64,000 bases of DNA from Phycisphaerales bacterium (GTDB lineage: Bacteria > Planctomycetota > Phycisphaerae > Phycisphaerales > SM1A02): assembly GCA_009691915.1 (NCBI GenBank), contig SIAD01000001.1, positions 186,001 to 250,000 on the forward strand, given 5' to 3'. The position numbers and the translations under genes were made by a program. Positions 4,151 through 47,464 of the stretch are shown one piece after another; positions within the stretch are counted from its first letter, which is position 1, and each line of letters starts with the position of its first letter. The notes beneath the pieces were generated by a model. It saw only the letters and a list, made by a program, of their open reading frames with translations, was not told the DNA's origin and searched no databases.

Positions 4151-4171
4151 GGAAAGATCTCCTCGGGACGA

Positions 4172-4177: not shown

Positions 4178-4200
4178 GCCGCAAAAGGGGGCAGCGCTCG

Positions 4201-5412: not shown

Positions 5413-5421
5413 AGGGGCGAA

Positions 5422-5427
5422 AGGGTA
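5422..5427 (-). promoter_or_regulatory. Candidate -10 box of pgk operon (near-leaderless)
   Basis: TACCCT on the minus strand ends 9 nt before the pgk ATG. No convincing -35 or Shine-Dalgarno is visible. It overlaps the miaA ribosome-site region because the two start codons are only 18 bp apart. Confidence 0.4.
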
Positions 5428-5430
5428 CAA

Positions 5431-6375: not shown

Positions 6376-6389
6376 GCGCCGAAGTGGTG

Positions 6390-6433
6390 TTCAAGCGACA
6401 AACTTGAAGCGTTCGTGATCCCTCACGGACGCT
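6390..6433 (+). terminator. Two adjacent hairpins between miaA and topA
   Basis: The first hairpin is TTCAAG/CTTGAA around a 7-nt loop. It is followed by an 11-bp stem (6408-6418 with 6423-6433, one G:T wobble) around a TCCC loop. No T-tract follows, so it may be a terminator of miaA that does not depend on a U-tract, or a regulatory structure upstream of the topA promoter. Confidence 0.4.
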
Positions 6434-6451
6434 CTTGCCGATGGCTTCAAC

Positions 6452-6479
6452 TTGACAATCGGCCAAATGAACCCATGAT
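6452..6479 (+). promoter_or_regulatory. topA promoter
   Basis: A perfect -35 TTGACA (6452-6457), a 16-bp spacer and a -10 CATGAT (6474-6479) lie just before topA. The -10 ends 11 nt upstream of the ATG, so the transcript would have a leader of only a few nucleotides. No Shine-Dalgarno is evident. Confidence 0.6.
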
Positions 6480-6490
6480 GCCACCCTTCA

Positions 6491-24251: not shown

Positions 24252-25598
<1,347 letters not shown>

Positions 25599-25616: not shown

Positions 25617-28600
25617 CTACTGTTCGCACATAAACAGCGCCAGTTTGACACACGACTCGTCCCAGGCGATTGAGCAGCATTCCGGTTGCATCTTGCCGCA
25701 GATGAGTGCGCAGCACGACGCCTGAGTGCAGTACGGAGTTGGGTGTGGCGTGAAGCATGATCCGGTCGTCGGGTCGCCGCACCCGGGCCCATCGCAGACC
25801 CGGCACTCGGTGCGGGCGATCTCAGCGCACTGCGTGTCCCACGATATCTCGCAGCAGATCGCCGCCATCGCGCACACGCTGTCGCAGCAGACCAGCACCC
25901 TGCAGGATGGCGACAAGTGCGGAATGCAGCAGTCCCCTGCAGTCGCATCGCCGCACTCCGGGGGCGGGCAGGCAGGATCCACCCCGCGGGTGCAGAGCTG
26001 CTTGGCGAGGTTCGCGCAGCTGACATCCCATGCCGATTCGCCGCAGTAGGTGTCCTGAGCACACACCAGTGTGCAGCAGGCGAGATCGCGGCAGTTCGGG
26101 GTCGCGTGCGCCTCGCAGCACTCTCCCGCGCAGAGGTCGCCGCATGGCTTGATGCATCCGCACTCGTCGATCGCGACTGCTTCCGAGGCGCAAGTCTCAT
26201 CCCAGGCGAGGTCACAGCAGATGGCGTCAAGCTTGCACACCGCCTCGCAGCAGGCATTCGATCGGCATGCGGGATTTTCGCTGTGCGCCGAGCAGCAGTC
26301 ACCCGCCAGAGCGTTGCCGCACTCCAGCGCGGATTGGCAGAGAGCTTCCGCCTGAGCCGCTGCCGCGCAGTCGGAGTCCCAGATCGTCTCGCAGCAGAAC
26401 GAGTCGAGCCTGCAGATCGTGACGCAGCAGATCCCGTTGTTGCATCCGGCGTTGGCATGGCCCGAGAGGCACGAGCCGGACTCGTCGTTCCCGCACCCCC
26501 GCGCACAGCGCTGGTATGCGAACTTCACGCAGTCGAAGTCCCACCCCACGGTGCAGCAGTATGGATCCTGCGCACACACCGCAGCGCAACAGTAGCGGTC
26601 GCTGCACGAGGGCGAGTCGTGGGGAGTAAGACACCCTTCGTTGCAGGAGTTGCCACAGCCTGGGGCTCCACAGCAGAGCCCACGGGCCAGCGTCGCGCAG
26701 TCTTGATCCCAGGTCACCATGCAGCAATTGGCGTCTGAGAAGCACACGGCACTGCCGCAGGCGATGTCCTCGCAGCCGGGGTTCTCATGCGCTTCGACAC
26801 ACGATCCAGTGCACGGCATGTTCCACTCGACATCGGGGCGGCAGTACAGATTCGCCTTGGAGACGCACGAGGCGTCCCACGCCAAGCTGCAACACTCCGG
26901 CTCGACGTAGCAGACTGCATTGCAACATGATGCATCAACCGACCCAGGAGTTGGATGCACCTGAAATGGCGAGCCATCGCCGGGGCAGCCACCAACCTCG
27001 ATGCAAACATACGGGGCGAGTCCGGCACACGTCGCGTCCCACTTGATCCGACAGCAGTCCGGTTGGATACTGCAAACTGCAGTCGAGCACTTGAGGTCTG
27101 CGCACCCTGTTTCGGGATGGGCGACCAGGCAGTCGCCACGGCCATGCGCCCCCGTGGGCAACTCGCATCCGATCTGCAACTGCGCGAAGACCATCGCCTC
27201 GCCGACGCATATCGCATCCCATTGGACGGTGCAGCAATAGGTGTCGTAAATCTCGCAGATCGTGCCGCAGCACCCCGGATCATCGCATCCCTTCAGGAAA
27301 CTGGCGACGAAGCAACTGCGCCCGCCCGCTTGGGCGCAGACATCGGACTTGGGGGGACAACTGGCGAGCGCGGCCATCGCACAGTTGGCATCCCAAGTGA
27401 ACTCGCAGCAGAATGGATCAGTGGCACAGATGATCAGACAGCAGACGGCGTCATCGCAGGCGGGAGACTTGTGCGGCTGGAGGCACGGACCGGCAAACAC
27501 ATCGCCGCATCCCTCGCAGAGTTCATGGACCTCGGCGACGCAGTCAGCGTCCCATCCCGTCGTGCAGCAGGCGGGATCGACCGCACACACATGATCGCAG
27601 CACGCCGGATCGGAGCACCCCGGATCGGCGTGCTCGACGAGGCAGTTCCCCGTCGCCCCCTTGCAGACCGGATTCTGGGCGCAGAAGCTCTCGGCCGCGG
27701 CCACGCAAGACACGTCCCAGGTCACGCCGCAGCAGTATGGGTCGGAGTTGCAGACCGAGCTGCAGCAGCTCAGTGACGAGCACCCGGGGACTACGTGCAC
27801 CTCGAAGCATCCACCCGAGGCCCCCCCAGTGCCGCAGGGACACGCGAGGTCGACACAGAACTGGAGTACTTCCGCGACGCACTGCACATCCCAGACAGTC
27901 TCGCAGCAGACAGGATCGAGGGAACAGACGGTCTGGCAGCACTTCGCGTCGCGGCAGAATGGCGTTCCGTGACGGAGGCAGCAGTCCTGGGCACTTGGGC
28001 TGCCGCATTCGAGTTCCTGACAGAAGAGCTCCGCCCTATCCACGCACACCTGATCCCAGAGTTCCGAGCAGCAATCAGGGTCGACGACACAGACCAGACT
28101 GCAGCATTCGGCGTTGTCGCAACTGGGGGTCGTTCCGACTTGGTAGCACCCCGGCAGCGCTGCATTGCCACAGTTGACGCACGCAGAGCGAGCCACGGTC
28201 ACGCACGCCAGGTCCCACTGGACAGCGCAGCACAGCGGAGCCTGAAGGCAGACGGCTTCGCAGCACTCAAGGGCCGAGCAAAAAGGGGCCCCATGCGCCA
28301 CGAAACACCCGCCCGTACCCGGAAGGCCACAGGCACCACAGCTTGGACTCGCCAAGTCCACGCAGATCTGATCCCACACAATCGTGCAGCACGGGGGGGA
28401 GAGAGTGCATGTGTATTCGCAGCAGTCGCGGTCGGAGCAGAACGGCGTGGCATGCACCTCTGAACAGATTCCTGCCGTCGGTGACCCGCAATAAACGCCG
28501 TCCTTGCTTGAGGCATTCGGAGCACCGGGAGTGTCGACCCCGGTCGTCACCACCTGATCGAACGCCGAGAGATACTTGTTGTCGGAGTTCCGGTAGACAT

Positions 28601-29600
28601 GAAATGGCGCCTCAAGTTGCCCGATCCCGGGGTCCACTGGACCGACTTCAAACAGCATCCCGTGGGTGTAGATGCATCCGAGGCCACCCGTCCCTGTCGT
28701 GAGCGGGCTCCGGACGGCACTGACTGCGTCCAGCACGACATCCCAAGGGGGAAGCGCGTTGGGCGGCGGCGGCCCAAACACGGGCGTGAACCGGGTGTCG
28801 ATCTCGCAATTCTGATTGCGGTCGATCGCCTGGTTGACCGCCGGGAAGGCCGCCTTCGCGGTGTAGCCCGTCCCACTGGGACGGCGGTAGACGAGCAACC
28901 AGGTTGTGTTGAGATCGTTCTGCTGGAAGAAGGAGATCGGCTGCGGAATCAATTTTGGGAGGACTCCTGGGGGAATCGGCAGTGTGAATGAACTGTCGAC
29001 GATGAGGGCGAGCCCAACCCCGTCACCCGCCGCAGCAAACTCTGCGCCGCTCAGGTCGATCACGCGCTTGATGATCCCATTGGTGAGTGTGGTCGAGTTG
29101 TTTCTCGCGACCATGATCAGGTAGTACCCCGCGTCGAATCTCCGCGAGAATGGGTACTCGGGCGGAAGCTCCAGTGGGACCCGGAACTCCACATACCGCT
29201 CCTGCGCCAGTGCGGAAGCGGGTTGCGCACTCCGGAACTCGGAGATGGTGAATGCGGGAATCCGCCCCTTGTTGGCGCCGAGGCCGCCTTGTGTCGTCCC
29301 AGCAAACGACACGAGGCGATTGAGCTGGATCTTGTCGTCGTTGTCGAGGATCCCATTGCGATTGATGTCCGCACACGCGGAATAGGTCCCCTGCGCCAAC
29401 AGTCCATTCCACACCGCGACATCCATCGCGTTGACCTTTTTGTCGTCGTTGAGGTCGCCGAGAAACAGCGCCGGCGCGCAGTACTGGGCGGCAGCATCGT
29501 GCGCGGGGACAGCGAGCATGGATAACCCGAAGACTCCCAGCGCGATCATCGCCTGGACGCTTCCCAGCAGACACCGTCGATCTGTGCTCTTTAGACTCAT
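25617..29600 (-). CDS. Secreted protein with dockerin-like module and 17 tandem Cys-rich WD repeats
   Basis: 1327 residues. A signal peptide (~1-38) is followed by a dockerin-like pair of Asp/Asn-rich loops (GDLNDDKKVNAMDV, ADINRNGILDNDD) at ~48-96. A beta-rich segment (~115-345, beginning FTISEFRSAQPAS) loosely resembles lamin-tail-like domains. From Cys379 to the end run 17 repeats of about 43 residues with spacing C-x8-C-x4-CC-x3-C-x5-CC-x7-C-x7-C, a His at position 5 and an invariant WD. Nothing I recognise has this repeat. It must be folded by disulfides, or bind metal, outside the cytoplasm. ATG 29600 overlaps the uppS stop (TGATG); a GTG at 29603 is alternative. It is the last gene of the pilus/secretion-like run. 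Confidence 0.85.
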   Translation of the reverse strand: MSLKSTDRRCLLGSVQAMIALGVFGLSMLAVPAHDAAAQYCAPALFLGDLNDDKKVNAMDVAVWNGLLAQGTYSACADINRNGILDNDDKIQLNRLVSFAGTTQGGLGANKGRIPAFTISEFRSAQPASALAQERYVEFRVPLELPPEYPFSRRFDAGYYLIMVARNNSTTLTNGIIKRVIDLSGAEFAAAGDGVGLALIVDSSFTLPIPPGVLPKLIPQPISFFQQNDLNTTWLLVYRRPSGTGYTAKAAFPAVNQAIDRNQNCEIDTRFTPVFGPPPPNALPPWDVVLDAVSAVRSPLTTGTGGLGCIYTHGMLFEVGPVDPGIGQLEAPFHVYRNSDNKYLSAFDQVVTTGVDTPGAPNASSKDGVYCGSPTAGICSEVHATPFCSDRDCCEYTCTLSPPCCTIVWDQICVDLASPSCGACGLPGTGGCFVAHGAPFCSALECCEAVCLQAPLCCAVQWDLACVTVARSACVNCGNAALPGCYQVGTTPSCDNAECCSLVCVVDPDCCSELWDQVCVDRAELFCQELECGSPSAQDCCLRHGTPFCRDAKCCQTVCSLDPVCCETVWDVQCVAEVLQFCVDLACPCGTGGASGGCFEVHVVPGCSSLSCCSSVCNSDPYCCGVTWDVSCVAAAESFCAQNPVCKGATGNCLVEHADPGCSDPACCDHVCAVDPACCTTGWDADCVAEVHELCEGCGDVFAGPCLQPHKSPACDDAVCCLIICATDPFCCEFTWDANCAMAALASCPPKSDVCAQAGGRSCFVASFLKGCDDPGCCGTICEIYDTYCCTVQWDAICVGEAMVFAQLQIGCELPTGAHGRGDCLVAHPETGCADLKCSTAVCSIQPDCCRIKWDATCAGLAPYVCIEVGGCPGDGSPFQVHPTPGSVDASCCNAVCYVEPECCSLAWDASCVSKANLYCRPDVEWNMPCTGSCVEAHENPGCEDIACGSAVCFSDANCCMVTWDQDCATLARGLCCGAPGCGNSCNEGCLTPHDSPSCSDRYCCAAVCAQDPYCCTVGWDFDCVKFAYQRCARGCGNDESGSCLSGHANAGCNNGICCVTICRLDSFCCETIWDSDCAAAAQAEALCQSALECGNALAGDCCSAHSENPACRSNACCEAVCKLDAICCDLAWDETCASEAVAIDECGCIKPCGDLCAGECCEAHATPNCRDLACCTLVCAQDTYCGESAWDVSCANLAKQLCTRGVDPACPPPECGDATAGDCCIPHLSPSCRVLVCCDSVCAMAAICCEISWDTQCAEIARTECRVCDGPGCGDPTTGSCFTPHPTPYCTQASCCALICGKMQPECCSIAWDESCVKLALFMCEQ
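25620..28466 (-). repeat. 17 tandem protein-coding Cys-rich repeat units
   Basis: Seventeen diverged units of roughly 130-170 bp including linkers encode the 43-residue repeat. Well-kept units include the 2nd (CFVAHGAPFC), 6th (CLVEHADPGC) and 12th (CLTPHDSPSC). The 10th unit lacks the first two cysteines; the 9th and 11th have CS or CG in place of the first CC; the 15th has CG in place of the second CC. All 17 keep WD. Units differ widely at DNA level, so this is an old expansion rather than a recent slippage array. Confidence 0.85.
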
Positions 29601-30391
29601 CACGACTCTCTCACAGCTCCTTCAATGCCCGACGATTCGGCGCATCCTAGGGAGGGGTTGCCAGAATCAATCCCGTCCGTCGTGATTCCGCCAAAGGTCC
29701 GCTTCCTGTTCGAATAATCAGCGATGGCCTCGCGCAGGTCGGCTGGTCCGAAGTCGGGCCACAAGGTCGGGACAAACCGGATTTCGGCGTAGCTCAGTTG
29801 CCACAGGAGGTAGTTGGAGAGCCGTTTCTGACCACCGGTCCTGATGAGAAAGTCCGGATCCGGAAGGTCGTGAGTCGAGAGATTCGCCGCGACAAGTTCT
29901 TCGTTGACTGAATCGGGGGACACTTCTCCGCAGGCGACTTGCCGGGCGATTGCCCGCGCAGCATCAGCGATCTCTCCGCGCGATCCGTAGTTGATCGCGA
30001 GCGCGAGCGTGATCTTCCTTCCTCCGGCTGTTGCCCGCTCCGCGAAGTCAAACGCGCGCAACACCTCCTCGGGCATCCCGTCGCGGCGGCCGATCCTGCG
30101 GATCCGCACACCCATCTCGATCAGGCTCGCATGCTCCTCTGCAAGCTTCTCACAACAGAGCGCCATGAGCGCGTCGATCTCCGGCGCAGGGCGGGTCCAG
30201 TTCTCGCTGGAGAACGAGTAGAGGGTCAGAACTTCAACCCCGGCATCGGCGGCGGCGGCAAGTACGGGGCGAATGGCGAGTGCTCCCGCACGATGACCAG
30301 CCACACGAGGGAGACCCCGAGATTGAGCCCATCGACCGTTGCCATCCATGATGATGGCGATGTGCCGCGGAGTTAGCCGTGCGCCGTTCAT
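29600..30391 (-). CDS. uppS: Di-trans,poly-cis-undecaprenyl diphosphate synthase
   Basis: Elongates FPP with IPP to undecaprenyl diphosphate, the carrier lipid for peptidoglycan and surface glycans. 263 residues from ATG 30391. The family signature HIAIIMDGNGRWAQSRG carries catalytic Asp16; then GHRAGALAI, LYSFSSENW and RTGGQKRLSNYLLWQLSYAE. The last motif has Gln-Lys where most homologues have Glu-Gln. The ATG begins one base after the GspK-like gene stops, and its TGA overlaps the ATG of the Cys-rich protein gene, so it is embedded in the secretion-like operon. An upstream start at 30412 would overlap its neighbour. Confidence 0.95.
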   Translation of the reverse strand: MNGARLTPRHIAIIMDGNGRWAQSRGLPRVAGHRAGALAIRPVLAAAADAGVEVLTLYSFSSENWTRPAPEIDALMALCCEKLAEEHASLIEMGVRIRRIGRRDGMPEEVLRAFDFAERATAGGRKITLALAINYGSRGEIADAARAIARQVACGEVSPDSVNEELVAANLSTHDLPDPDFLIRTGGQKRLSNYLLWQLSYAEIRFVPTLWPDFGPADLREAIADYSNRKRTFGGITTDGIDSGNPSLGCAESSGIEGAVRES

Positions 30392-30392
30392 T

Positions 30393-33300
30393 TCAGTCCA
30401 GCACCTTCTCAAACATCAGGATCTTCGGCTCCTCGCCCGGGCGATTGACCAACGAGCGATCAACCACCATGACATAGCGCGACTCTTCCAGAAGCGACGA
30501 AGGACTCGTCCCGTCCCACGCCCCGGTGGCCGGATCGGGAGCCACCGCCCTCACCCGCAGATACACGGTAAAGATGTCGCTTCGTGAAGTGACCATGTTG
30601 GCGATCCCCTTGAGGAGCGCATTGCGTTCGCTGACATCACCCGCGACGGAAGTCCGCGCGAAGATCGCCGGCTCGATCGCAGGGGTATTGATGAAGTCGT
30701 ATTGGAGCGCGTCGATGCCCGAGCGCTCGGTCGCGAGCTGCGCGCCGTAGCGACGAAGGCCCCCGCTGCGCCAGCCCAAGCCAGAGTCGGACGGAATCGG
30801 AACAGCCAAAGGAGGATGTCCTGTCGGTGGAGTCGAAGACGGAACTGGAGGGTCTTCACTCCCGCGGTACGGATCGCGTCCCGCATATGCGATCGACCAG
30901 GACTTGTTCTCGCTCCACGCCGCGCCGGGAACCCACTCCTCCTCCGGGTCTGGTTCCAGTGCAGTGCCCGCATCGGACGGGCGATACTCGCGATCCATCA
31001 GCGCCAACTCGCCGACGGAGACAATTCCGCGTTCCCGGCGCATCTGAGGGTGGAATGGGAAGAGCGCGGGCTGCCCGGTCGCGGGCACGAATCCTCGATC
31101 GTCATACTTCGGTCCGTCCGGGAAACCGTTCGCGGCCGGTAGCCGGTCGCGGTAGTTCACAATCGTCTCCGGGAGTCGGACGCGCCAAGTCGCCGCCGCG
31201 CCTCCGGGAGCCACTTCGACCGTCCCACCGGTGTTGACAGGATCGATGTCGTAACTCAGCTGCTGCATGTGGGGCAATGCCCGCATGACCTCAATCGGCG
31301 CCGTGTTGATGTTGACGAGCCCCGGAGTTCCGGTTCCGGCGAATCCACCCGAGAGCCGAAGCCTTCGCTGCTCGGCGACAAGGCGCTCCGCGTCGGTCGT
31401 TGTCAAGTTGTTGTCGGCATCGACCATCAAGACCCCCGCACCATCGATGGTGAACCCATCTAGAATCGAGGCCCCTGCTGGCAAGAGAGGCACAAATCCC
31501 ACGATGCTGAGTACTGCGTCGCGGGAACGATCGTGGAGAAAGTGAGTCGTGTCCCGCTCGTCGGTCGCATCCGCTGTGAACGAGGGGAAGTGGACATTAG
31601 GATCAGTATTGGACTTGCGGACCCCGCTTGCGTTGCGGTTGCCGATCATCATTTCGCCGGCGGTCGCATGGGTCTTCCACGCGCCACCATCGAGTTTCAT
31701 GACCGGGCCCCAGACGGGCACATCGAGGATTTCCGCGACCTGCTCGAAGGCTCCCTCCCGCTGGGTCAGTCGCAGCGGATGCCGATAGAAGTCAAGTGCT
31801 AGCGTGGGAACGCCGGCGCCCGTGTCCCCATAGATCTCTGTCGGCGGTAGGGCACCGCCTGGAATGCCGGGCCAACTCGCGCTCGGCGTCATGGGCCATC
31901 CGGTGTAGACCCGGTCGACGCCAACGACTTGCGTCCGGAGTGTGAAGTTCGTGGGCTTCCCGCGAACAGAGTTGCCAAACGGAGTCTTGGCGCTCGACAT
32001 CAGAATCTTGTCGGGTTCGGTCTTGAGTTCCTCTGCCGTGAAGACAATCCCAGGGAATTCGGAGGTGGCTCCCGCCAGCATTCCTACATACTCCGGACCG
32101 CCCTTGCCATGCTGCGAGACAACCGGCTTCGAGTTGGAGGCGAAGACGAAGCGCGGCGACCGTTCGTTGGCGGTGATCGCCATGTCTCCATCGACATCGA
32201 GAGCCCAGGGACGGCTTGATCTCGCCCAGGTCATCAGGAAATCGTTGCCGCCGATGTCCACTCGCGCGAAGTTCTGAGTCGCGCTGCCGGGATCGGGCGG
32301 GACGAACGTCGGAGGCACCATGAATCCGGCGCCGGAACTCGGTCCGGTCGTACCCCCACCGCCCGAAGTCGGATCCGGCGGTGGTTTGAGCACTCGTTCA
32401 AGCTCCTCGCGCCATGGGTGGTTGTCGTGCTCCACGCCACCCTGGGCATCCGTCAGCGAGAACTCGTTCTCAAATCGATCGACGACGATGGTCGCGCTCG
32501 ATGACGGGTTGTACGGGTCGGCGACGAGACGAATGAGGGCGATGTCCGAGTCCTCATGGTTCGCCGACTCGAGTTTGTCGTAGTAGAACTTCGGGTGAAG
32601 ATCCCAGCGGTTGGACCCCGCCTCCGCCACGCTCTCGCCCCCGGACTGCCTCGACGCGTTGAAGAGAAGCGTGTCGGCATAGACCGTCATGGGATCCTCG
32701 AACATGTCGGATCCGGTTCCGCCGGTGGGGAAGAGCTCGTTCACTGGAACCGCCGCAATCTCTGTGACGAGCCGCTGCGGGACGATCGCCCCCGAGGGTG
32801 CTCCCGACGGTGTGATCCACGGATGGGTCAGATCGAGCATCGCCATCATCCGCGCCCGGAAGTTCGGATCGTCGTCAAAGGCCTTCGGGATGGCAAAGAC
32901 CACCGCGCTGCGCGGCCCCTCCTCCGTGGCCGGACCGAGCACTGGCGAGAAACCGTACCCCCAGCGGCCATCGGTGCCCGTCGGCGGCTGCAGGAACTGG
33001 AAGGTCTGACCGAACGCCCTCAGCTGAAATGGCCAGAGCTCGATCGGTTCGTTATACGGATTGGCAATCTGCACCGCGAGCACGATGCGCGCGGGGTCCG
33101 AGGTCTGCTGGCTGTAACAGACATAGCCGCTGCCGGCCCCGGACACGCCAGGGGGGACCACGCCGGTCTTGGGATACACCACCGCGAAGAACACCTGCAC
33201 GATGAAGGGGTGCTTCTCCTCGCCGACGAAGCTGTAAGTCGTCGCCCCCTCCTCGATGATGATCCCGCGTTCAGGGTGAAGCGGCGGGTCAGTCGGGACA

Positions 33301-35765
33301 TTGACGCCAGCCTGCAGACGGGGACCGTCCCGTGCCGCAAGGATGTTGGCGGTCCAGCTGGCGCATGCACGCCGAGCCTTGTCGAGGTCGGCGATCTCAC
33401 TGCCGAAGACGCTCGTGCGAGTGTCAACATCGAGCAACGACCGCTGCAGCACCTTCATGACATCGCGTCCGAAATCATGCTGCGCCATCAGGAACTGCTG
33501 GGCGTTCGCGTGGTCATCGAAGAGTTCCCGATTGAGGTCGACCTTGCGGTTCCACGAGAGAAACTGGCTCCGCGCGAGTTCAACATCAGTCTGGTCAACA
33601 ACGCCGTCGCAGTTACCGTCTCCGGTGTCGGCGCCGGGCTGCGCGGGGAACTGCTTCGCGAGGTCGGGAGTGCCCTGGGGCGGCACGCTGCGCGCTGCTG
33701 AGACATCGAGAATTCCATAAGCCGACTGGTAGAGCGGCTTCCACGAACGCACCTGCCCGGCGGTCCACGGGGTCGTGGGGTCGGCCGCGGGAGCTGGCGG
33801 CAGGGTCCACAACCACGGAGGCATCAGATCGTTCCGCGCAGCGCTCACGGTCGTGATCTTGCGGCGGTTGTCAAAGAGGAGTTGCCGCGCGTCCAGCTGG
33901 TCGAAATATTCACTCGTCTCCTCGCGCGCCATCGACGACCGGAGGAACTGGAAGTTTTGATCTGCGGGAGTAGTGTCCGGGTCAATCGCGCGCTCCAGCC
34001 TGGTTCGTAGATAGGGGTTGTTGTGACCAGTGAAGGCACGAAGTTCCAATTCGTCGGCCATCGAGAAGGGGTCGAGCTGCTCTGCGGGAGAGCCGCTCGC
34101 GGAGCGCAGCACGGGAACGCCTGCCGCGTTGAAGTACCCATCGACCGCTCCGCCGATCGACATCGCCTTGAAGAACCGAACCCGCTCAAGACCCGATTTG
34201 AGGAAGTTCGGAAATGCAGGGTTGGCCGCAGCGATTCCAGTGCTGGCCTCTTTCACGATGCCCAGCTCCCGCAACAGGGTCGGATCGGTGAGGGATCCGG
34301 GAATCGTTGCGGTGGTAGTTGGTGCGCCAAACCGCTCGCGTTGAAAATTCACCGACACTCCTGAGTAGGCGGTGCTTCCCGCGGTGTTGAGTGCCGTACT
34401 CAGGAATCCGACCTCGTCCGAGTACTGCGGCGACGCGCCGGGAGGCGGGATCACCGCTCCCGTCGAGTTCTGCCGTCCAACGAGTGCCAAGTCTGACGGG
34501 GTCGTGCCGCCAGTGGTCGCCGAGTCGCTTCGTGTGGCGATGTTCACATTGAGCAGTGCGCAATTGTCGACGACTGACACTCCCACGAGGTGGCGGACAG
34601 AACGGTCAAGAGATGTCGGCGCGAGAAACCAAAAGCTGTCCGTGAACCCATCGCCGTCGGTATCGCACAGCGTCCTCGTGATGATGTTGCGTGGGCTGTC
34701 CTTGATGAACTCGTCACCCTTGGGACCAAACCACTTGAGACGGAGGAAGTTCGGCAGCACCATTGACTGATCGCCAAGCGCCTCAGCATGAGCGCTTGAG
34801 AACCACCCACCCTGAGGGGCGGCCACGGGGGTAGTACCGAACGCCAACTGCTGGAATGTCAGTGCCGCGTCGCCTTGCGGAGTCGATGGGTTGGGAAATG
34901 GTCCCATCGGCGCAGGGGGAACCGCGCCGAGAGTCGTGGGAATCCACAGGGTCGGATCCGGCGGCAGCGAGGGAAGCCACTGTTCGTAGGGGATCTGCAG
35001 CCCATACCGGGCAGGCGGTGTCGCAAAGAACTGCGCGGGGTCAACCGGCGCGACCAGTGTGAGCGTGTTCGCCGCGACATTCGAAATGTCTGTGACCAGT
35101 CTCCAACCGTTGTTTGACGAAGGGATCCAGGAGAGGTGCGCCCAGTGTGAAAACGCCGGCGATCCCTGAAAGACAACCCGCACCGGCTCGGTGCTGCGGA
35201 GCCACCGCGCATCGCCGAAGCCGGGATTCCCGACCGGGTTGCCCTCGAAAGAGCGAATGTCTCCTGCGGGTGACGCGTTGTAGAGATCCGGCCAGTTCGT
35301 CCACGGACGAACCTCGTAGGGTGCATAGTTGTAACCATCGACGATGCCGTCGGTCCCGATGGCGAGCGTCGAGTTGCTGAGGGTGTCCAGCGGATCGACC
35401 CCGAAGCGGGTCTGCGACCCAGGAATGAACCCACTGCCCTGCACAGGAATGTCCATGGAGGCCGAGAGCCTCGGATACGCACTCGATGCGATCCCCGTGC
35501 CGGGGGGAAGGAGCGACGGATCGGTCGGGTTGACCGGCTTCACGAAGAGCGCCTGCGAAATATCATCGGTCACCGCATGCGCGATCGGCCCGACCCGGTC
35601 GGTCTGCGCCGCCGCTTGCTGCTGGGCACTCGCTGTCACACGCCCCCCCTGGGTGCGGCTGACAAACGCCGTCGCGATGATGACCAAGAGAACAAGGATC
35701 GAGACCACGAGGATCATCGTGCTGCCTCGGCGTGAACACTGTCTCGGACGGTTCGTCGGGTGCAT
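30393..35765 (-). CDS. Giant GspK/PilX-like pseudopilin-associated protein
   Basis: 1790 residues, several times the usual GspK length. An Arg-rich leader is followed by RRGSTMILVVSILVLLVIIATAF, a prepilin-like helix without the Glu5, as in GspK and PilX. GspK-type features appear far apart: VVDNCALLNVNIATRSD near residue ~405 and a helix-hairpin-helix-like GLVNINTAPIEVMRALP near ~1505. Calcium-loop-like stretches occur (DTDGDGFTDS, DGNCDGVVDQTD, DVDGDMAITANE). It is the sixth pilin-like gene in the run, with 15 bp after the preceding gene and 1 bp before uppS. The probable role is tip-complex assembly of a type II/IV-like filament; the size is unexplained. Confidence 0.75.
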   Translation of the reverse strand: MHPTNRPRQCSRRGSTMILVVSILVLLVIIATAFVSRTQGGRVTASAQQQAAAQTDRVGPIAHAVTDDISQALFVKPVNPTDPSLLPPGTGIASSAYPRLSASMDIPVQGSGFIPGSQTRFGVDPLDTLSNSTLAIGTDGIVDGYNYAPYEVRPWTNWPDLYNASPAGDIRSFEGNPVGNPGFGDARWLRSTEPVRVVFQGSPAFSHWAHLSWIPSSNNGWRLVTDISNVAANTLTLVAPVDPAQFFATPPARYGLQIPYEQWLPSLPPDPTLWIPTTLGAVPPAPMGPFPNPSTPQGDAALTFQQLAFGTTPVAAPQGGWFSSAHAEALGDQSMVLPNFLRLKWFGPKGDEFIKDSPRNIITRTLCDTDGDGFTDSFWFLAPTSLDRSVRHLVGVSVVDNCALLNVNIATRSDSATTGGTTPSDLALVGRQNSTGAVIPPPGASPQYSDEVGFLSTALNTAGSTAYSGVSVNFQRERFGAPTTTATIPGSLTDPTLLRELGIVKEASTGIAAANPAFPNFLKSGLERVRFFKAMSIGGAVDGYFNAAGVPVLRSASGSPAEQLDPFSMADELELRAFTGHNNPYLRTRLERAIDPDTTPADQNFQFLRSSMAREETSEYFDQLDARQLLFDNRRKITTVSAARNDLMPPWLWTLPPAPAADPTTPWTAGQVRSWKPLYQSAYGILDVSAARSVPPQGTPDLAKQFPAQPGADTGDGNCDGVVDQTDVELARSQFLSWNRKVDLNRELFDDHANAQQFLMAQHDFGRDVMKVLQRSLLDVDTRTSVFGSEIADLDKARRACASWTANILAARDGPRLQAGVNVPTDPPLHPERGIIIEEGATTYSFVGEEKHPFIVQVFFAVVYPKTGVVPPGVSGAGSGYVCYSQQTSDPARIVLAVQIANPYNEPIELWPFQLRAFGQTFQFLQPPTGTDGRWGYGFSPVLGPATEEGPRSAVVFAIPKAFDDDPNFRARMMAMLDLTHPWITPSGAPSGAIVPQRLVTEIAAVPVNELFPTGGTGSDMFEDPMTVYADTLLFNASRQSGGESVAEAGSNRWDLHPKFYYDKLESANHEDSDIALIRLVADPYNPSSSATIVVDRFENEFSLTDAQGGVEHDNHPWREELERVLKPPPDPTSGGGGTTGPSSGAGFMVPPTFVPPDPGSATQNFARVDIGGNDFLMTWARSSRPWALDVDGDMAITANERSPRFVFASNSKPVVSQHGKGGPEYVGMLAGATSEFPGIVFTAEELKTEPDKILMSSAKTPFGNSVRGKPTNFTLRTQVVGVDRVYTGWPMTPSASWPGIPGGALPPTEIYGDTGAGVPTLALDFYRHPLRLTQREGAFEQVAEILDVPVWGPVMKLDGGAWKTHATAGEMMIGNRNASGVRKSNTDPNVHFPSFTADATDERDTTHFLHDRSRDAVLSIVGFVPLLPAGASILDGFTIDGAGVLMVDADNNLTTTDAERLVAEQRRLRLSGGFAGTGTPGLVNINTAPIEVMRALPHMQQLSYDIDPVNTGGTVEVAPGGAAATWRVRLPETIVNYRDRLPAANGFPDGPKYDDRGFVPATGQPALFPFHPQMRRERGIVSVGELALMDREYRPSDAGTALEPDPEEEWVPGAAWSENKSWSIAYAGRDPYRGSEDPPVPSSTPPTGHPPLAVPIPSDSGLGWRSGGLRRYGAQLATERSGIDALQYDFINTPAIEPAIFARTSVAGDVSERNALLKGIANMVTSRSDIFTVYLRVRAVAPDPATGAWDGTSPSSLLEESRYVMVVDRSLVNRPGEEPKILMFEKVLD

Positions 35766-35780: not shown

Positions 35781-37319
35781 TTACGACACAGGCCGCCGTG
35801 GTAGTTCGACTATCAATTGCACAGAGCGCCCCTGCTCGAGCCGCTTATCGGGGTCGTGAAGGGTCATGGTGATCCGGATCGCTGTGGGCCACGGGGTAAA
35901 GTCCTGATTGGCAACAGGAGCCCCCGAAAGACTGGTGTAAATCGCGGAGTCGCCGTTGAATCCGAAGACCGCCGTGTAAACCGTGACCGGAACAGTGAGT
36001 CCGAAGGGCTTGATGACAGGAACGGGCAGCGTCGTCGCGATCCCCTCGATCGCTTCCGGGAGAATGGGCAACTGCACAAAGGCGGGATTCCCACTGCCAT
36101 CGAGATTGTTGTCTCGATACTCGGTGAGCGTCGTGACCCCGCGCAAGGAGTCGGTCTGGGTGGCAGGGATCTGCGAGTCGGGGAAGCCGAACCATGGCGT
36201 CGCGGCCAGTGGCGACGGAGTGAACCCAGGGAAGAGCACGGTGGCGCCACCCAGCGTCAAGAGGGTGCGTCCTGTTCCCGCAGACCATGTCCAATCAACC
36301 ATGAATCCCGCGCAGTTCGAAGCAAGCGTCGGCGTGGTCAGCATGACATCAGCGCGGTGCATGCTTGGCGATCGTTTCTCGCTGCGCACATAGCCACCCA
36401 CCTGACCGAATGCCGCGGGCGATCCGAAGAATCCATTGATCGCCCGTTGCCGCCAGGTGAGAGAGCCAATCGGAGCAACGATCCGGCGGAGATCATCGAG
36501 ATTCATGCTCGTCACATCCACTCGGGAGTTCACGAGATCAGGATTGGGGCTGAGCGCCCCGTCCATGAGTGTCTGATGGAGCGTTGCCTGATCGAACAGG
36601 CTGGTCGCCGAGTTGGGGCCGTAGACCGGGGACTGTTGCTGGAACAGCGTCCGCGACCCACCATCGTCGGCCATCAGCACAGCTTGTCGCGCCAGCGACC
36701 AGTCCCGCGCCTCGGGCTGGGTTCCATTCGTCTTGCCGGATCCCCCTCCGATCCAGTACTCGTAGTCGAGGCTGGGACCGTCCTGAACCGGGTCGAAACT
36801 CCACGGAACCAGCGGACCAGAGTCGAACCCGACTGGATCCGGCCGAAGTGTCTGGGTGGGCCCCTCCGGAACGAGGTCGGGAAGCTGGATACCGTGTCCG
36901 TAGAGAATGCGGCTCAGGGCGCTTCGCGCGAGGCCGTTTCCTGGACCGAGGTCCTGCCCTCCGGAAAACCGCACGGAGTCCTGCATGCCCTTGGCAAAGA
37001 AGAGGAGCTGGTCGGCGCGAATCACCGCGGTTGCGGCGCGGGAAGGATCAAGAAGTGGCGCCGCCGGGTTGCTTAGCTGGTGGATGTTGTTTCCAACAGC
37101 CACGCACTGGATGACGATCATCCCATCGAAGTCAATGCGCGAAATGTCTGTGCGTATCTGCCGTTCGATCGCGCCGGTCTCCTGGAGGACATCCGTGTTC
37201 GCTTCGCCGATGCTCGCCACCTTGCTCGCGGTCGAAAAGATCTTGCTGGTGGCGGCGATCACGACCAGCAGCAGGCTCACTGCGACCATCAGTTCGACCA
37301 TGGTGAAGGCGCGGCGCAC
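35781..37319 (-). CDS. Pseudopilin, GspJ-like
   Basis: 512 residues from GTG 37319. The N-terminus RRA|FTMVELMVAVSLLLVVIAAT is a type IV prepilin signal with Ala at -1 and Glu5, followed by STASKVASIGEANTDVLQETGAIERQIRTDIS, typical of the GspJ N-terminal helix. The remaining ~440 residues form an unusually large globular part; GspJ is normally near 200. The frame runs open to 37436, but that would overlap the previous gene and hide the signal; GTG lies 4 bp after that gene's stop. It probably belongs to the filament-tip complex with the GspI- and GspK-like proteins. Confidence 0.78.
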   Translation of the reverse strand: MRRAFTMVELMVAVSLLLVVIAATSKIFSTASKVASIGEANTDVLQETGAIERQIRTDISRIDFDGMIVIQCVAVGNNIHQLSNPAAPLLDPSRAATAVIRADQLLFFAKGMQDSVRFSGGQDLGPGNGLARSALSRILYGHGIQLPDLVPEGPTQTLRPDPVGFDSGPLVPWSFDPVQDGPSLDYEYWIGGGSGKTNGTQPEARDWSLARQAVLMADDGGSRTLFQQQSPVYGPNSATSLFDQATLHQTLMDGALSPNPDLVNSRVDVTSMNLDDLRRIVAPIGSLTWRQRAINGFFGSPAAFGQVGGYVRSEKRSPSMHRADVMLTTPTLASNCAGFMVDWTWSAGTGRTLLTLGGATVLFPGFTPSPLAATPWFGFPDSQIPATQTDSLRGVTTLTEYRDNNLDGSGNPAFVQLPILPEAIEGIATTLPVPVIKPFGLTVPVTVYTAVFGFNGDSAIYTSLSGAPVANQDFTPWPTAIRITMTLHDPDKRLEQGRSVQLIVELPRRPVS

Positions 37320-37323
37320 CGGA

Positions 37324-38520
37324 TCAGAGCTCCTGCACCGTGGCGTAGACAGGAACGATCGAAACTCCCGCGGCGTCGATTCCCGGGAGGAACCAGATCG
37401 CACGGATCGAAGTATTGAGACCGGTTGGAGAGCCATTGGCCCCGAAGCCGAAGAGAGATGGCAGTGCGGGGTGCGAAGGAATCGGGCGCGTGAGCGTCAC
37501 GGGCCCTTCGCGCGTGTTACGACGACCGCCGATTCCCCGATGGACCGTGCCGTACTGATCGACGATCCACTGCCCTGGGTACTGCCACGATTGCTCGGCG
37601 GTGAGATCGACTGGGTTCCCAGTCGCTGCAGCTGCTGTGCCTGGGACGGTCGCGTTGTCGATCGCGGTGTTGGGATTCCCATCAAACCCCCCTGCGGTCC
37701 ATGGGGCGGCGGGAATGATGGACAGCGGCAACGGCGGTGTCGCCGCGTTGATCGGAACCGCACCCTGCGCCACCGTGTAAGGGCGCGACTCACCACCCGA
37801 GACGATCCGGTAGACGAAGATCGCGACCTGAACGCGACCCTCGAACCGTCGGAACATGCAATCCCAGTAGTACGCGGGCTTCTTGAATCCCTGTCCCGCT
37901 GTCCCCGGCTGCGGATACGACCGTTCCGACTGCGTAACGACGACGACCGGCACCGTGTCAGCGTGAGTATCGACAGGCAGGAACGGCGAATACTGTGGAT
38001 CGAAGAGCGAACGGTTGTACGGGAGCCCATAGAGCGCGGCACCCGCACCGCCGCCCGCATCGCCGTCAGGGCTCTCGTTGCCGGCCTTGCTCATATTCAC
38101 CGCGCTGCCGAGCGATCCACCCATCTGCTTGCTCGAGTAGAGCCCGCTGAAAATGTCGATCGCGCCGAGTTCATTGACCGCCGTGTTCCCGAGGTCGGAG
38201 AACAGCGAGCCCGGGCGCTTCCACCGCCAGTCGCCGGGAATCGTTATTCCAAGTGCTAGGGAAGGAACCCCCGTTGGGAGCATCACGAAGTCACTCTGTC
38301 CGAAGTCTTCGTAGCCGCCGAACCACTTGGGATCAAGCTTGAGCCGAAGGATGGCCATCGCATTGTCGGCCACGATCGGCCCCATGATGTCGTCGGAGGC
38401 CTGGCGCTGTTGCACGATCCCCACCGGAAAGAGCGCAGATATACCGATGATCCCGATCCCGAGAATGAAGACGGCCAAGAGGAGTTCGACGAGTGAAAAT
38501 GCACGGCGCATGGATGTCAT
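37324..38520 (-). CDS. Pseudopilin, GspI/PilV-like
   Basis: 398 residues starting MTSMRRA|FSLVELLLAVFILGIGIIGISALFPVGIVQQRQA. The Leu-rich helix with GIGIIGISALFPVG resembles GspI/PilV N-termini. The C-terminal body is far longer than the ~120 residues of classical GspI, and rich in Gly, Pro and Asn. The start ATG overlaps the stop of the preceding pseudopilin (ATGA). Probable minor tip pseudopilin; the assignment to the I class rests on the helix only. Confidence 0.75.
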   Translation of the reverse strand: MTSMRRAFSLVELLLAVFILGIGIIGISALFPVGIVQQRQASDDIMGPIVADNAMAILRLKLDPKWFGGYEDFGQSDFVMLPTGVPSLALGITIPGDWRWKRPGSLFSDLGNTAVNELGAIDIFSGLYSSKQMGGSLGSAVNMSKAGNESPDGDAGGGAGAALYGLPYNRSLFDPQYSPFLPVDTHADTVPVVVVTQSERSYPQPGTAGQGFKKPAYYWDCMFRRFEGRVQVAIFVYRIVSGGESRPYTVAQGAVPINAATPPLPLSIIPAAPWTAGGFDGNPNTAIDNATVPGTAAAATGNPVDLTAEQSWQYPGQWIVDQYGTVHRGIGGRRNTREGPVTLTRPIPSHPALPSLFGFGANGSPTGLNTSIRAIWFLPGIDAAGVSIVPVYATVQEL

Positions 38521-39464
38521 TTGGGAGTCACTCCCGCCACACCCGTAAACCGATTGAAGTGAATGCGATCGGCAAACTGATTGACGAACGCCGTGCGAGC
38601 GACATTGAGCGCCTGCCAGTTGCCATAGCCCTGCCAGTCCGATGGAGTTCCCTCCTCGTGCATCCGGTCACTGTCGTAAATGGCGAGAAAGGTCGTGTGA
38701 TCCCCCAGAGCCTCGTCGTTGAGTTCGTCGAAGGCAAAAAACTTGCCGTTGGATCCCGACGTAGTCGTCCCGATATCCAGCAGGCCATTGCGATTGAAGT
38801 CGATCCATGTCCCAACGCTCGAGGTGTCCGTCGCGCTGCTGGTCAGATTGCCGGCTAGCGACGGGTTGCGAGTCCTGACTGAGCCGTCGGGACCGAAGCG
38901 CACAACGACCAGACTTCCTCGTTCGGAATTGCGCAACCGCGGCTGGGAGAGCCAGAGCGTGTCCTGTCCGATGTCGTTGATGTCTGTCACCTCCGCTGCC
39001 GACCCGGCCACATTGATGCCCGCAGGCAGGAGCCTCGGGGGCAGGCCCTCAACCGGTTCGAACTCCTCAATGAGCAGGTCATCGATGCCCGCCGCAGGCA
39101 TGACGATGGTCCAGGCCCCAGCCGTCGCGGTTCCGGGGAACCCCACCCGACCCGTCGGTTTGGCGACGATGATCTCTGTCTGCTGCGGCTTCGAGATGTC
39201 GTTGATGACCGTCCCGCTGGCATCCTTGATGGTCGCCTGCCGGATCCGGAATCCGACGAGAACCGTTGCGTGGTCGCGTATGGCGATGGCACGGGCCTGA
39301 CCGAGTGCCGCGAGAACATGGTTGGTTGCCCCCGCGACCCGTGCGTCCTTGGCGACTCGTTGCGCACTCATGGTCACTGTCACCGCCAGCACGGCGATCA
39401 CTCCGATCACCGCCAGGAGCTCGGCGAGTGTGAATGCACGGGAATTGGCGCGGCGATGGATCAT
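38517..39464 (-). CDS. Pseudopilin, GspH-like
   Basis: 315 residues. RA|FTLAELLAVIGVIAVLAVTVTMSAQRVAKDARVAGATNHVLAALGQARAIAIRDHATV matches the GspH/FimT layout: prepilin helix, then an alpha segment with QARxxAIxxxxxV. The C-terminal part includes a Ca-loop-like DFNRNGLLDIG. It overlaps both neighbours by 4 nt (ATGA at each end), so it is translationally coupled in the pseudopilin series. Confidence 0.75.
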   Translation of the reverse strand: MIHRRANSRAFTLAELLAVIGVIAVLAVTVTMSAQRVAKDARVAGATNHVLAALGQARAIAIRDHATVLVGFRIRQATIKDASGTVINDISKPQQTEIIVAKPTGRVGFPGTATAGAWTIVMPAAGIDDLLIEEFEPVEGLPPRLLPAGINVAGSAAEVTDINDIGQDTLWLSQPRLRNSERGSLVVVRFGPDGSVRTRNPSLAGNLTSSATDTSSVGTWIDFNRNGLLDIGTTTSGSNGKFFAFDELNDEALGDHTTFLAIYDSDRMHEEGTPSDWQGYGNWQALNVARTAFVNQFADRIHFNRFTGVAGVTPK

Positions 39465-40189
39465 GGCCTCGGCAGTGGCTCGTACGAGAAGATGTTGTCA
39501 TCCATCGAGGTAAAGTCCCCATCGGGACCGCACGAAATGAAGTACGGCCGACGATTCCGGCAGATGCCAAGCGATGTTTCGTCCTGGGTCCTCACAGTCC
39601 CATCGTTGGCGTCGGTTGGGATGGCGGGATTCGCAAGCTCGGCCTTCGTCGCCGGCCGCCCCGGGAAAACGCTGGAGATCCTCCGCCCCCAGGGGTCGAT
39701 GATCTCGCGCACCTGGGCAGCAGTCGTGGGCATTCGGTTGGGGAGCCAATTCGCCGGCAGCGGATCGCCGATCACGGTGCCCCCGTTGACCGGGACAAAC
39801 CTGAGTGCCGACGCTGGCACTTTGGCAAGAATCTCCGACGACTCCGAGCCCGCGACGGCGAGTTGTTCGACCATCACGCAGATGATGTAGGCCGAAGTCG
39901 CGTTTATCTCGTAGATGTCGTAGGCCACCGTCGGTGTAGTGCCGGTGTAGTCGGGAGTTGCGGCGGGGACGCCCGGAACGGCGCGGCGACCGAAGGTCAT
40001 TGATCGCCCCATCTGCGACTGCCAGGAATCCATCGCCTGTTCGAGCAGCTTGAAAGTGGTCTCCATCGAACGGCGGTCGTTGGCGGCAAGCACCGCAGAA
40101 GTCACTGAGAGCGCGAGCGCCATCAGGATCAGGATCACGCCGATCACCACCACCAGTTCCAGCACCGTGAAGGCTCGTCGCGCGCTCAC
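39461..40189 (-). CDS. Pseudopilin (class uncertain, GspG/H-like)
   Basis: 242 residues. SARRA|FTVLELVVVIGVILILMALALSV is a prepilin signal with Glu5. It is followed by a helix (RSMETTFKLLEQAMDSWQSQMG) as in GspG-like proteins and a compact body containing DPWGRRISSVFPGRP, which recalls the DPWG element of major pseudopilins. The start is GTG 40189, overlapping the stop of the upstream gene (GTGA). The body ends SCGPDGDFTSMDDNIFSY, also GspG-like (SxGPDG). It could be the major pseudopilin or a second copy of it. Confidence 0.72.
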   Translation of the reverse strand: MSARRAFTVLELVVVIGVILILMALALSVTSAVLAANDRRSMETTFKLLEQAMDSWQSQMGRSMTFGRRAVPGVPAATPDYTGTTPTVAYDIYEINATSAYIICVMVEQLAVAGSESSEILAKVPASALRFVPVNGGTVIGDPLPANWLPNRMPTTAAQVREIIDPWGRRISSVFPGRPATKAELANPAIPTDANDGTVRTQDETSLGICRNRRPYFISCGPDGDFTSMDDNIFSYEPLPRP

Positions 40190-41238
40190 TTGCCCACCTC
40201 CGCGATGTTGTCCTCGTTCAGTCCACCCGCATCGATGCGCACCCCGAAGTCGACACCGCGATCAGGGCCCATCGAGAACAGCGCGAACTCCGCCCCCTGC
40301 AGTCCGCGTGATGTCGTTGTGTCGCCATTGCCATCGGCGATCCCGTCGGTCTCCGTTCCGGCCGCAAATCGCTGCGGACGCAGGGCAAAGACATCACCCA
40401 GATCCCATCCCATCCCCGGCGCCCCCGCACCGCCTCGTCCGCGCGTGAGTTTCGGGTCCGCGTTGGCGTACCCACGGCGGTAGTAGCGGATCGGCTGCCC
40501 CCAGTAATCAACGACGCAGCGGGGCGCGGTCTCGTTGTAGTTGTTGTCTCCCGGCCGTGCAACGATCGGCGCACCGGTCGCCGACACACCCACGACTGCC
40601 CCGAAGATCGTGGCGTCCTTGAGTTCGAGGTATGGCCCGAGCACACGCCCCGAAACATTGGAGATGGTCGAGGAGTTGGCGGAGGCACCCTGCGGCAGAT
40701 TGCGCTGCGCAAGAGTCCCGAGAGGCTGCGTCGGTGCGACCGGAGTCAGGTACGCCCCCCAAGCCCCGTCGCGCAGCGGCGCACGGATTCCGACTGAGGG
40801 AATCTCCTTCGATCCCAGCGAGTTGGCGATCGGAGTTCCGACGGCACCGTAGCCATCCTGATCGCGCCCGCCGGGGCCGACGAGGTACTCGACGAGAGAA
40901 GTGATCGAGCAGTAGTTCTGGGGCCCGACCTGCTGTGGGAGGTCCGGTCCGCCCAGTACCTGCGGAATGAGAAGATCGCGCAGGTAGCCGGGACTTCCCG
41001 CCATCGATCCGCCGCCCGGTGCCAGCCCCAGAACCGGGGGGAGATATCCGATGTCGGTCTTGAACCGGACCAGGGAGTTCGAGATCGACCCCATCAGCGC
41101 GCGCGTACTCGTCGCCTGCGCCGCCTTCGCCGAGGACGACAGCACGGTCACGAGAATCCCAACGAGCAGCACGATGACCGCGACGACCACCAGCAGTTCG
41201 ACCACCGTGAACCCAGGGCGGTGCCGCAGGGAGCTCAC
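40186..41238 (-). CDS. Pseudopilin, GspG-like
   Basis: 350 residues. RPG|FTVVELLVVVAVIVLLVGILV is the most canonical prepilin signal of the set (Gly at -1, Glu5). An amphipathic helix (RALMGSISNSLVRFKTDIGYLPP) follows. The C-terminus has VVDYWGQPIRYYRRG and FALFSMGPDRGVDFG, equivalents of the DPWG and SxGxDG elements of GspG, though the protein is more than twice the usual length. The start is GTG 41238, overlapping the gspF stop (GTGA). Candidate structural subunit of the filament together with the 39461-40189 product. Confidence 0.78.
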   Translation of the reverse strand: MSSLRHRPGFTVVELLVVVAVIVLLVGILVTVLSSSAKAAQATSTRALMGSISNSLVRFKTDIGYLPPVLGLAPGGGSMAGSPGYLRDLLIPQVLGGPDLPQQVGPQNYCSITSLVEYLVGPGGRDQDGYGAVGTPIANSLGSKEIPSVGIRAPLRDGAWGAYLTPVAPTQPLGTLAQRNLPQGASANSSTISNVSGRVLGPYLELKDATIFGAVVGVSATGAPIVARPGDNNYNETAPRCVVDYWGQPIRYYRRGYANADPKLTRGRGGAGAPGMGWDLGDVFALRPQRFAAGTETDGIADGNGDTTTSRGLQGAEFALFSMGPDRGVDFGVRIDAGGLNEDNIAEVGK

Positions 41239-42524: not shown

Positions 42525-42527
42525 GGA

Positions 42528-44294: not shown

Positions 44295-44308
44295 GGGCAT
44301 GCCTCCAA

Positions 44309-44314
44309 ACTATA
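44309..44314 (-). promoter_or_regulatory. Possible -10 box before pilB copy 1
   Basis: TATAGT on the minus strand, 14 nt upstream of the GspE ATG at 44294 and just before TTGGAGG. No good -35 at standard spacing. The 85-bp pilT-pilB gap is the only real break in the 25617-47312 run. Confidence 0.4.
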
Positions 44315-44379
44315 CGGCATTACAGGCTGATCTTGATTCAATAATAAGGTTTGTGTTATGACAACTGGTATTCGAGAAG

Positions 44380-45540: not shown

Positions 45541-45566
45541 CGTGGCGACTCCTCTGGTTCAGCGAC

Positions 45567-47312: not shown

Positions 47313-47414
47313 GGTCTGCTCCGTCGCTGGGTTCTGTGTGCATGAAGGGCTCGATCCGAGAAGGTCAAATGGTAGCAAGCACTCTCCGCGTTCCGGCGGA
47401 AGGCACGCTTCTTG

Positions 47415-47420
47415 TAGTCT
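47415..47420 (+). promoter_or_regulatory. Candidate -10 box of gnd-zwf
   Basis: TAGTCT lies 44 nt upstream of the gnd ATG, with GGAGG (47454-47458) as ribosome site. The -35 is not convincing. The 152-bp divergent region must also hold the promoter for the pilB copy-2 operon; TACCAT at 47369-47374 on the minus strand is a weak candidate. Confidence 0.35.
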
Positions 47421-47464
47421 TCGGTTCCGCGCCTCGCGCACTTCACCGCCACGGAGGACTTCAC

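Follow-up and report, generated by a model that had tools for sequence, protein, structure and literature searches.

The window analysed here is a stretch of 64,000 nucleotides of Phycisphaerales bacterium contig SIAD01000001.1 (positions 186,001 to 250,000), and the gene in question encodes a protein of 1328 residues that ends in a tandem array of cysteine-rich units, each carrying a Trp-Asp pair. The array, spanning approximately residue 371 to the C-terminus, comprises 17 units, as the listing of units along the open reading frame (ORF) confirms for a count first given in an earlier note made from the DNA letters alone. All but five of the 180 cysteines (175/180) are situated after residue 370. 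The features of the gene, all on the reverse strand, are as follows.

25617..29603, reverse strand: gene of the 17-unit protein (whole ORF, 1328 residues, 180 Cys)
29603 (GTG) and 29600 (ATG), reverse strand: alternative starts of this gene
29484..29603, reverse strand: signal peptide by inspection, probably cut near residues 39-40
29316..29462, reverse strand: dockerin-like calcium-binding pair, residues 48-96, below the Pfam cut-off here
28494..29306, reverse strand: N-terminal domain of unassigned fold, residues 100-370; dockerin is the only Pfam family found nearby
25620..28493, reverse strand: array of 17 units, most often with ten Cys each
28338..28493, reverse strand: unit 1
28179..28337, reverse strand: unit 2
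28020..28178, reverse strand: unit 3 (units 1-3 form the modelled stretch)
27855..28019, reverse strand: unit 4 (optional C11 present)
27681..27854, reverse strand: unit 5
27516..27680, reverse strand: unit 6
27357..27515, reverse strand: unit 7
27183..27356, reverse strand: unit 8 (without the last Cys)
27003..27182, reverse strand: unit 9 (without C25)
26841..27002, reverse strand: unit 10 (without both C10 and C19)
26673..26840, reverse strand: unit 11 (without C25)
26505..26672, reverse strand: unit 12
26337..26504, reverse strand: unit 13
26160..26336, reverse strand: unit 14 (optional C11 present)
25992..26159, reverse strand: unit 15 (optional C11 present; without C36)
25803..25991, reverse strand: unit 16 (optional C11 present)
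25626..25802, reverse strand: unit 17

Export, as previously proposed, is supported by the signal peptide and by dockerin type I domains (PF00404) in related arrays. The dockerin-like module itself fares unevenly: in three of nine other N-terminal regions it scores above the gathering cut-off of 22.9 bits (25.0, 34.8, and 23.1 bits in loci L187, L192, and L201; L and G numbers denote related loci and genomes), whereas in the window protein it reaches 16.8 and 19.5 bits. By eye, the region of residues 100-370 recurs in further arrays from this genus and in some beyond it, and is absent from L085, L138, L162, L202, and L203.

Including the linker, the 17 units contain ten (six units), 11 (four), 12 (three), nine (three), or eight (one) cysteines. 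The nine per unit counted earlier had overlooked a cysteine in the linker "CG", and ten is the commonest number (6/17). The exact nine-cysteine spacing fits 9 of the 17 units, the remainder having small insertions or lost cysteines; shuffling the residues of the repeat region 1000 times never produced this spacing. At the DNA level, the core CC-x3-C-x5-CC-x3-WD-x2-C is found 12 times in the window and in none of 100 shuffles. The histidine described as conserved is frequent (413 of 598 near-full units) and not invariant. Ratios of nonsynonymous to synonymous substitution rates (dN/dS) for the gene are 0.086 against L186 and 0.110 against L189, with dS near saturation, and dS is infinite against L188; on these comparisons selection is purifying. 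The cysteines are almost completely retained, with 173, 175, and 171 of 175 kept in the three comparisons.

Cysteine pairing was addressed through co-loss, on the premise that partners of one bridge tend to vanish together, in 514 non-redundant units (<65% alike) drawn from 787. The four associations with the strongest signal have no cysteine in common: C10-C19 (p = 10^-17.5; both lost in 11 units, one alone in 6), C2-C25 (p = 10^-10; 14 and 36), C29-C36 (p = 10^-6.8; 3 and 1), and C24-C52 (p = 10^-6.1; 7 and 31). C35-C44 is taken as the fifth pair because it remains after the other four, and each pair of the best matching returned in 94-100 of 100 resamplings by ORF. Earlier co-loss runs on overlapping data agree in direction. 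These associations suggest the disulfide map C2-C25, C10-C19, C24-C52, C29-C36, and C35-C44, as a statistic on related sequences and not as chemistry.

A neighbor test on 608 adjacent unit pairs, from which exact duplicates were removed and relatives kept, recovered the within-unit associations (C2-C25, p = 4e-20; C10-C19, 5e-32; C24-C52, 0.004; C29-C36, 2e-4) and detected no significant cysteine association across neighboring units on either side (p = 0.13 to 1). The bridges thus look internal to the unit, since partners vanish within a unit and not across neighbors. Inter-repeat disulfides, which had been deduced from an odd count of nine as one option, the other being a spare cysteine for metal or another partner, were set aside on this basis, the commonest count being even and the partners lying inside one unit. 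An optional sixth bridge starting at C11 is suggested by the linkers: three or more cysteines follow in 150 of 151 units with C11, as against 67 of 457 without it, and C11 is also associated, more weakly, with extra cysteines in the preceding linker. As a general kind, the unit would be a disulfide-stapled extracellular repeat, for which within-unit pairing is indicated by co-loss statistics.

Structure prediction of consecutive units yielded a coherent and confident helical fold. The model of units 1-3, based on 140 aligned rows, has a mean predicted local distance difference test score (pLDDT) of 93.6, a predicted template modeling score (pTM) of 0.70, and three helices per unit. Foldseek searches with this model returned no PDB match at E up to 10 and three matches among viral models, at E 3.3 or worse; small cysteine-rich folds are hard for Foldseek, so an absent match is no proof of a new fold. 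In the model of the whole array there are 51 helices, again three per unit (pTM 0.25 on 10 rows).

In Pfam, NCBIfam, PHROGs, and the PDB, no known family was recognized in the unit, in agreement with the earlier note. Scans of the whole protein at E up to 10 found dockerin alone, below its cut-off, in Pfam and a single chance-level match in NCBIfam, and PHROGs gave no match; no library searched produced a confident family match to the repeat. Among 140 three-unit stretches (of 162 available), Pfam matches were scattered over seven families with a best E of 0.045 and at most two members each, none of them consistent. Dicty_CTDC (two) and Keratin_B2 (one) appear at E 0.01 among 54 proteins that combine units with other domains, their positions not being shown. 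Sequence searches of the PDB returned three dockerin chains for the whole protein (best E 0.019) and none for the units, and repeat profiles A1 and A3 matched, respectively, nothing and one designed repeat protein (E 0.25). Kinship to WD40 was rejected, since Pfam gives no WD40 match up to E 10 and the predicted model is helical; "WD repeat" is merely a label for the unit. The bacterial cysteine-rich acidic repeat TIGR02232 (myxo_disulf_rpt), although similar in kind, has no match to the 17-unit protein in the NCBIfam scan at E up to 10, and occurs somewhere in one of the 54 partner proteins.

GDNF-receptor alpha domains and phospholipase A2 are helical disulfide-rich folds. Like them, the unit is small, helical, and disulfide-rich, with CC pairs, but no Pfam, PDB-sequence, or Foldseek match connects it to either. 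The repeat was not found described in the open literature, where titles and the beginnings of abstracts, and few subscription papers, were covered, so that this is weak evidence of absence. With hundreds of units, a disulfide map open to testing, and a strongly lineage-restricted occurrence, the repeat looks like a new domain family, beyond a single new protein.

The organism's own genome contains 26 units, 17 in this gene and nine in six other ORFs. Genome proportions were sampled within its own family, order, and phylum. The window profile (E 1e-6) detects units in 149 of 181 family genomes, representing 41 of 45 genera, and in 2 of 294 genomes of the phylum sample, namely the own genome and one of its family. 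A broader profile, A4 (E 1e-4), detects 107 of 301 genomes in the order (105 in the own family and two in another) and 9 of 392 phylum-sample genomes, every one of the own family. By these profile searches the unit is common in one planctomycete family and scarce in the other groups sampled, and it seems to have spread through the exported proteins of this uncultured family.

A pattern scan of named genome contigs gave at least 119 stretches; among those listed, 116 contain the unit by profile and 101 are, by title, planctomycete records, while L081, L094, and L172 match the pattern and have no unit by profile. Non-planctomycete names listed are Wenzhouxiangella (L068), Limnohabitans (L161), an uncultured proteobacterium (L150), Spirochaetaceae (L081), and Kitasatospora (L094). 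Misbinning may explain L150 and L161; the contig named Limnohabitans, which would then be planctomycete DNA, carries a 2239-residue ORF with two units (2-6718, reverse strand). The Wenzhouxiangella metagenome-assembled genome (MAG) contig, which carries other genes of its own, encodes a 127-residue protein (2293-2676, reverse strand) in which one stand-alone unit lies between a signal peptide, assigned by eye, and an IPTL-CTERM sorting signal (22.1 bits, cut-off 20.5). Its gene adjoins genes that by eye resemble an M13 peptidase and an FG-GAP protein. In viral contigs, the pattern scan found two stretches, one without a unit (L184) and one with a single unit (L185). Phage and plasmid searches with the whole protein and the consensus unit found nothing, and a pattern search of related loci gave 14 pattern matches with no relatives by tblastn.

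The number of units is itself conserved. Arrays of at least ten units were counted by profile in the window and in loci from L065 on (n = 28): 23 have 17 units, four have 18, and one has 19. L127 and L189, both in this count, are apparently the same genome region, and in L195, L205, and L197 the number is approximate, since stretches of about 130-150 residues between units look by eye like decayed units. A further long array, L253, has 19 units. The long arrays of L200 and L141 have 18 units and carry at the C-terminus a domain not observed in the protein of the window. Of the loci, 20 were picked mainly for long ORFs.

The order of the units is also conserved. In a register test restricted to variable columns (BLOSUM62; arrays of 18-19 units and L127 left out), zero shift between the window array and other 17-unit arrays beat every other shift from -8 to +8 in 21 of 21 cases. 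In comparisons among eight diverse arrays, a unit was matched best by its equally numbered counterpart 384 times out of 952, where 1 in 17 is expected; with plain identity as the measure, the same index ranked first in 3136 of 7854 ordered comparisons between units. Plain identity is weak outside the genus, with 2-10 of 17 units matching the window in 15 arrays not known to belong to it. Many units are individually orthologous, as equally numbered units tend to match each other from genus to genus; given this order, the conserved count, and the frequent position beside uppS and purA, the 17-unit protein is old.

On balance, and with modest assurance, the protein is considered a beaded extracellular protein, structural or adhesive, made of small helical beads with five internal disulfides. 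This reading starts from the computed unit, its predicted fold, the co-loss pairing, the conserved number and order of units, and the restriction to one lineage. The unit would be an exported, all-helical domain of about 52 residues in which the observed pairs would be five internal disulfides, with a sixth optional. A signal peptide would be followed, in the own genus, by the dockerin-like module and one domain, and then by the beads. Once the chain is exported, the beads would fold one by one with their internal bridges, giving a stable, protease-resistant chain outside the cell in which they serve as spacers and contact surfaces. Selection would keep the seventeen surfaces distinct, each position with its own conserved surface. 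A location at the surface or in a matrix is suggested because the domains sharing polypeptides with units are extracellular and because of the Wenzhouxiangella case; the adhesive or structural role is presumed.

Several points weigh against this view. C24 and C25 also co-vary (p = 10^-3.9), C35-C44 stands mainly by elimination, and C29-C36 depends on few losses. A pTM of 0.25 on 10 rows does not establish the overall shape of the chain, no solved relative of the repeat was found in the PDB by profile or fold search, and binding of the array to any surface is putative. The own genome (completeness 95.92%), searched by Pfam alongside 14 control genomes, has no match to DSBA (8/14 controls positive), DsbB (6/14), VKOR (3/14), or Thioredoxin_4 (9/14), which leaves the source of the putative disulfides unexplained. 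The Evr1_Alr search was uninformative, as no control genome was positive. Either a divergent oxidase was missed, or one is encoded in the missing part of the genome, or the bridges are formed otherwise. The TlpA-like protein that had been placed in the window was not recovered by motif, with no domain search made and with shorter or overlapping ORFs left out: of 43 non-overlapping ORFs of at least 140 residues, ten contain CxxC, and the nine of these other than this gene lack WCxxC. It is doubtful whether the bolder proposition holds in full, that the unit is a new all-helical five-disulfide fold, the family's general surface-building module, with some 80 bridges formed by a novel oxidation route distinct from DsbA, DsbB, and VKOR.

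The alternatives rank, in descending order, as a pilus accessory, a peptidase scaffold, a wall protein, a metal binder, and a multi-headed inhibitor. The first follows from the genes surrounding the array, listed below.

24264..25598, forward strand: purA, convergent neighbor of the 17-unit gene, by sequence recognition and not by family search
29600..30412, reverse strand: uppS, undecaprenyl diphosphate synthase (PF01255, 254 bits); its end and the beginning of the 17-unit gene overlap
30393..35765, reverse strand: protein of 1790 residues, by eye resembling a pseudopilin at its N-terminus; without a Pfam family at E 0.01
35781..47624, reverse strand: type IV pilus/type II secretion-like cluster with five pseudopilin-like genes
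38517-39464 and 39461-40189, reverse strand: pseudopilins by eye
41235-42524, reverse strand: T2SSF (Pfam)
within 42531-47624, reverse strand: three T2SSE ATPases (Pfam)

Three T2SSE genes, T2SSF, the five pseudopilin-like genes, the 1790-residue gene, and uppS run in one direction with the 17-unit gene last, and several genes of the run have overlapping ends. N_methyl was found in three pseudopilins, two over the cut-off and one at 20.1 bits against 21.2. PilY1 is a pilus tip adhesin type, and by its position in the run the array could be an accessory of the upstream pilus-like machine, such as a secreted tip or filament adhesin. It resembles a PilY1-type adhesin in being large, secreted, and encoded last in a run of pilus-like genes, but has no sequence match to the PilC/PilY1 beta-propeller (Pfam, E up to 10), and the link to the cluster is confined to some genera. 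The array follows the cluster with gene order kept in the window, in G303 and G314 (own genus), and in G390 and G412 (two other genera), and in L177 a homolog of the 1790-residue gene lies directly upstream of the array, with no uppS match. On the other side, the flanks fetched for G251, G457, G466, G332, and G468 have no match to a cluster gene, and those of G379 have only PilT-like and GspE-like matches (41% and 24%) about 18 kb off. In G335 and G417 the 1790-residue homolog is nearby on the opposite strand, and in G294, whose genome has no unit at all, the cluster and the homolog are beside uppS, also on the opposite strand.

Proximity to uppS and purA is frequent. A uppS gene was found at 20 of 27 long-array loci (28 were searched, of which L204 has two units). 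It is about 3 kb from the array in L202, L203, and L085 and, in a longer stretch, 5 kb upstream in L138. There is no uppS match in the stretches searched of L141, L162, and L171; L156, with purA and hemW, is likewise among the seven loci without a match. In L200 uppS was not found in the flanks read, and this array may be a paralog. The uppS stretches of 12 further genomes include long arrays in G417 (19 units) and G353 (17 units), and ten are without a unit. Among the latter, hemW, purA, and uppS occur together in G294, G357, G361, G396, and G347 (own family) and in G002 (another family), with the contigs of G396 and G347 stopping soon after uppS; G330 has hemW-purA-uppS with uppS inverted, G077 has purA-uppS, and G564 and G604 have uppS alone. 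Because unit-less genomes keep this neighborhood, the array gene appears to have been added near uppS, which suggests an insertion within the own family. The neighborhood may thus be an inherited position, since the cluster link is missing or inverted in several genomes. A working link between array and pilus cluster is possible but weak, and a pilus accessory is unlikely.

The beaded surface protein remains the preferred reading, and the company kept by shorter arrays bears on both it and the second alternative, in which the protein would scaffold, or act as a binding module in, a complex of extracellular peptidases. The 54 partner proteins, from 121 ORFs with fewer than ten units in L065-L185 and some of them cut by contig ends, were scanned at E 0.01 and not at curated cut-offs. 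Pfam partners are dockerin (16), GBD_T9SS_assoc (8), subtilase (7), PPC (5), LTD, C-type lectin, FG-GAP_3, and Reprolysin_5 (3 each), and M43, P-domain, and TSP3 (2 each); NCBIfam adds a GC-type dockerin in 7 of 54. Separately, a pair of adjacent unit-bearing genes recurs in L116, L140, L167, L170, and L176, one encoding about 590-650 residues with two or three units plus one, and the other a larger protein with one or two units. GBD_T9SS_assoc was found in all three larger proteins scanned, and dockerin exceeded its cut-off in one of two smaller ones.

A "planctosome", in which dockerin-bearing parts gather peptidases, has been proposed for freshwater Phycisphaerae in PMC6461901. Units occur in the same polypeptides as dockerin, LTD, P-domain, TSP3, M12B, M43, and subtilase, a list close to that of the model, and the 17-unit array L085 derives from a MAG named there, ZH-13MAY13-plancto44. 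The Nemodlikiaceae planctosome is thus similar in its related organisms and in shared dockerin, LTD, P-domain, TSP3, and M12B, and differs in that the main text of PMC6461901 does not use the word "cysteine" and its section 10 does not describe the unit. No cohesin (PF00963) match was found in the own genome, where one of 14 controls was positive and divergent cohesins are possible; a cohesin-dockerin scaffold in this genome, at 95.92% completeness, was set aside. No Pfam enzyme domain was found in the long arrays scanned, beyond dockerin and weak matches, and several long arrays lack a dockerin region. A peptidase scaffold is accordingly judged quite improbable.

According to PMC8567305, the cysteine-rich YTV wall proteins are restricted to Planctomycetales and absent from early-branching planctomycetes. 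The 17-unit protein is a cysteine-rich candidate for their role in another order, and shares with them a secreted or wall-bound nature, cysteine richness, and restriction to a planctomycete lineage. It differs from them in its order and in its apparently intra-unit pairing, and the YTV motif is present in none of 28 long arrays. The apparent internal bridges argue against covalent cross-linking between molecules, and a YTV-like role is very improbable.

Binding of metal by the cysteines in place of disulfides, as in a metallothionein or a redox store, would accord with the missing DSBA, DsbB, and VKOR and with the frequent histidine near C10, yet the cysteines vanish in twos with specific partners and not in fours, and the helical model is confident, so that this explanation merits little credence. 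A multi-headed protease inhibitor with a reactive loop on each bead, which small cysteine-rich tandem beads, distinct at each position and found alongside peptidase domains, might bring to mind, matched no inhibitor family in the Pfam scans and is the least credible of all.

The mostly constant set of 17 beads, in one order from genus to genus, is indicative of a defined assembly. The array also poses a clean question, namely how a chain of 175 cysteines is folded in a bacterium without a recognized Dsb or VKOR pathway, and it would open a way into the surface biology of planctomycetes that have not been cultured.

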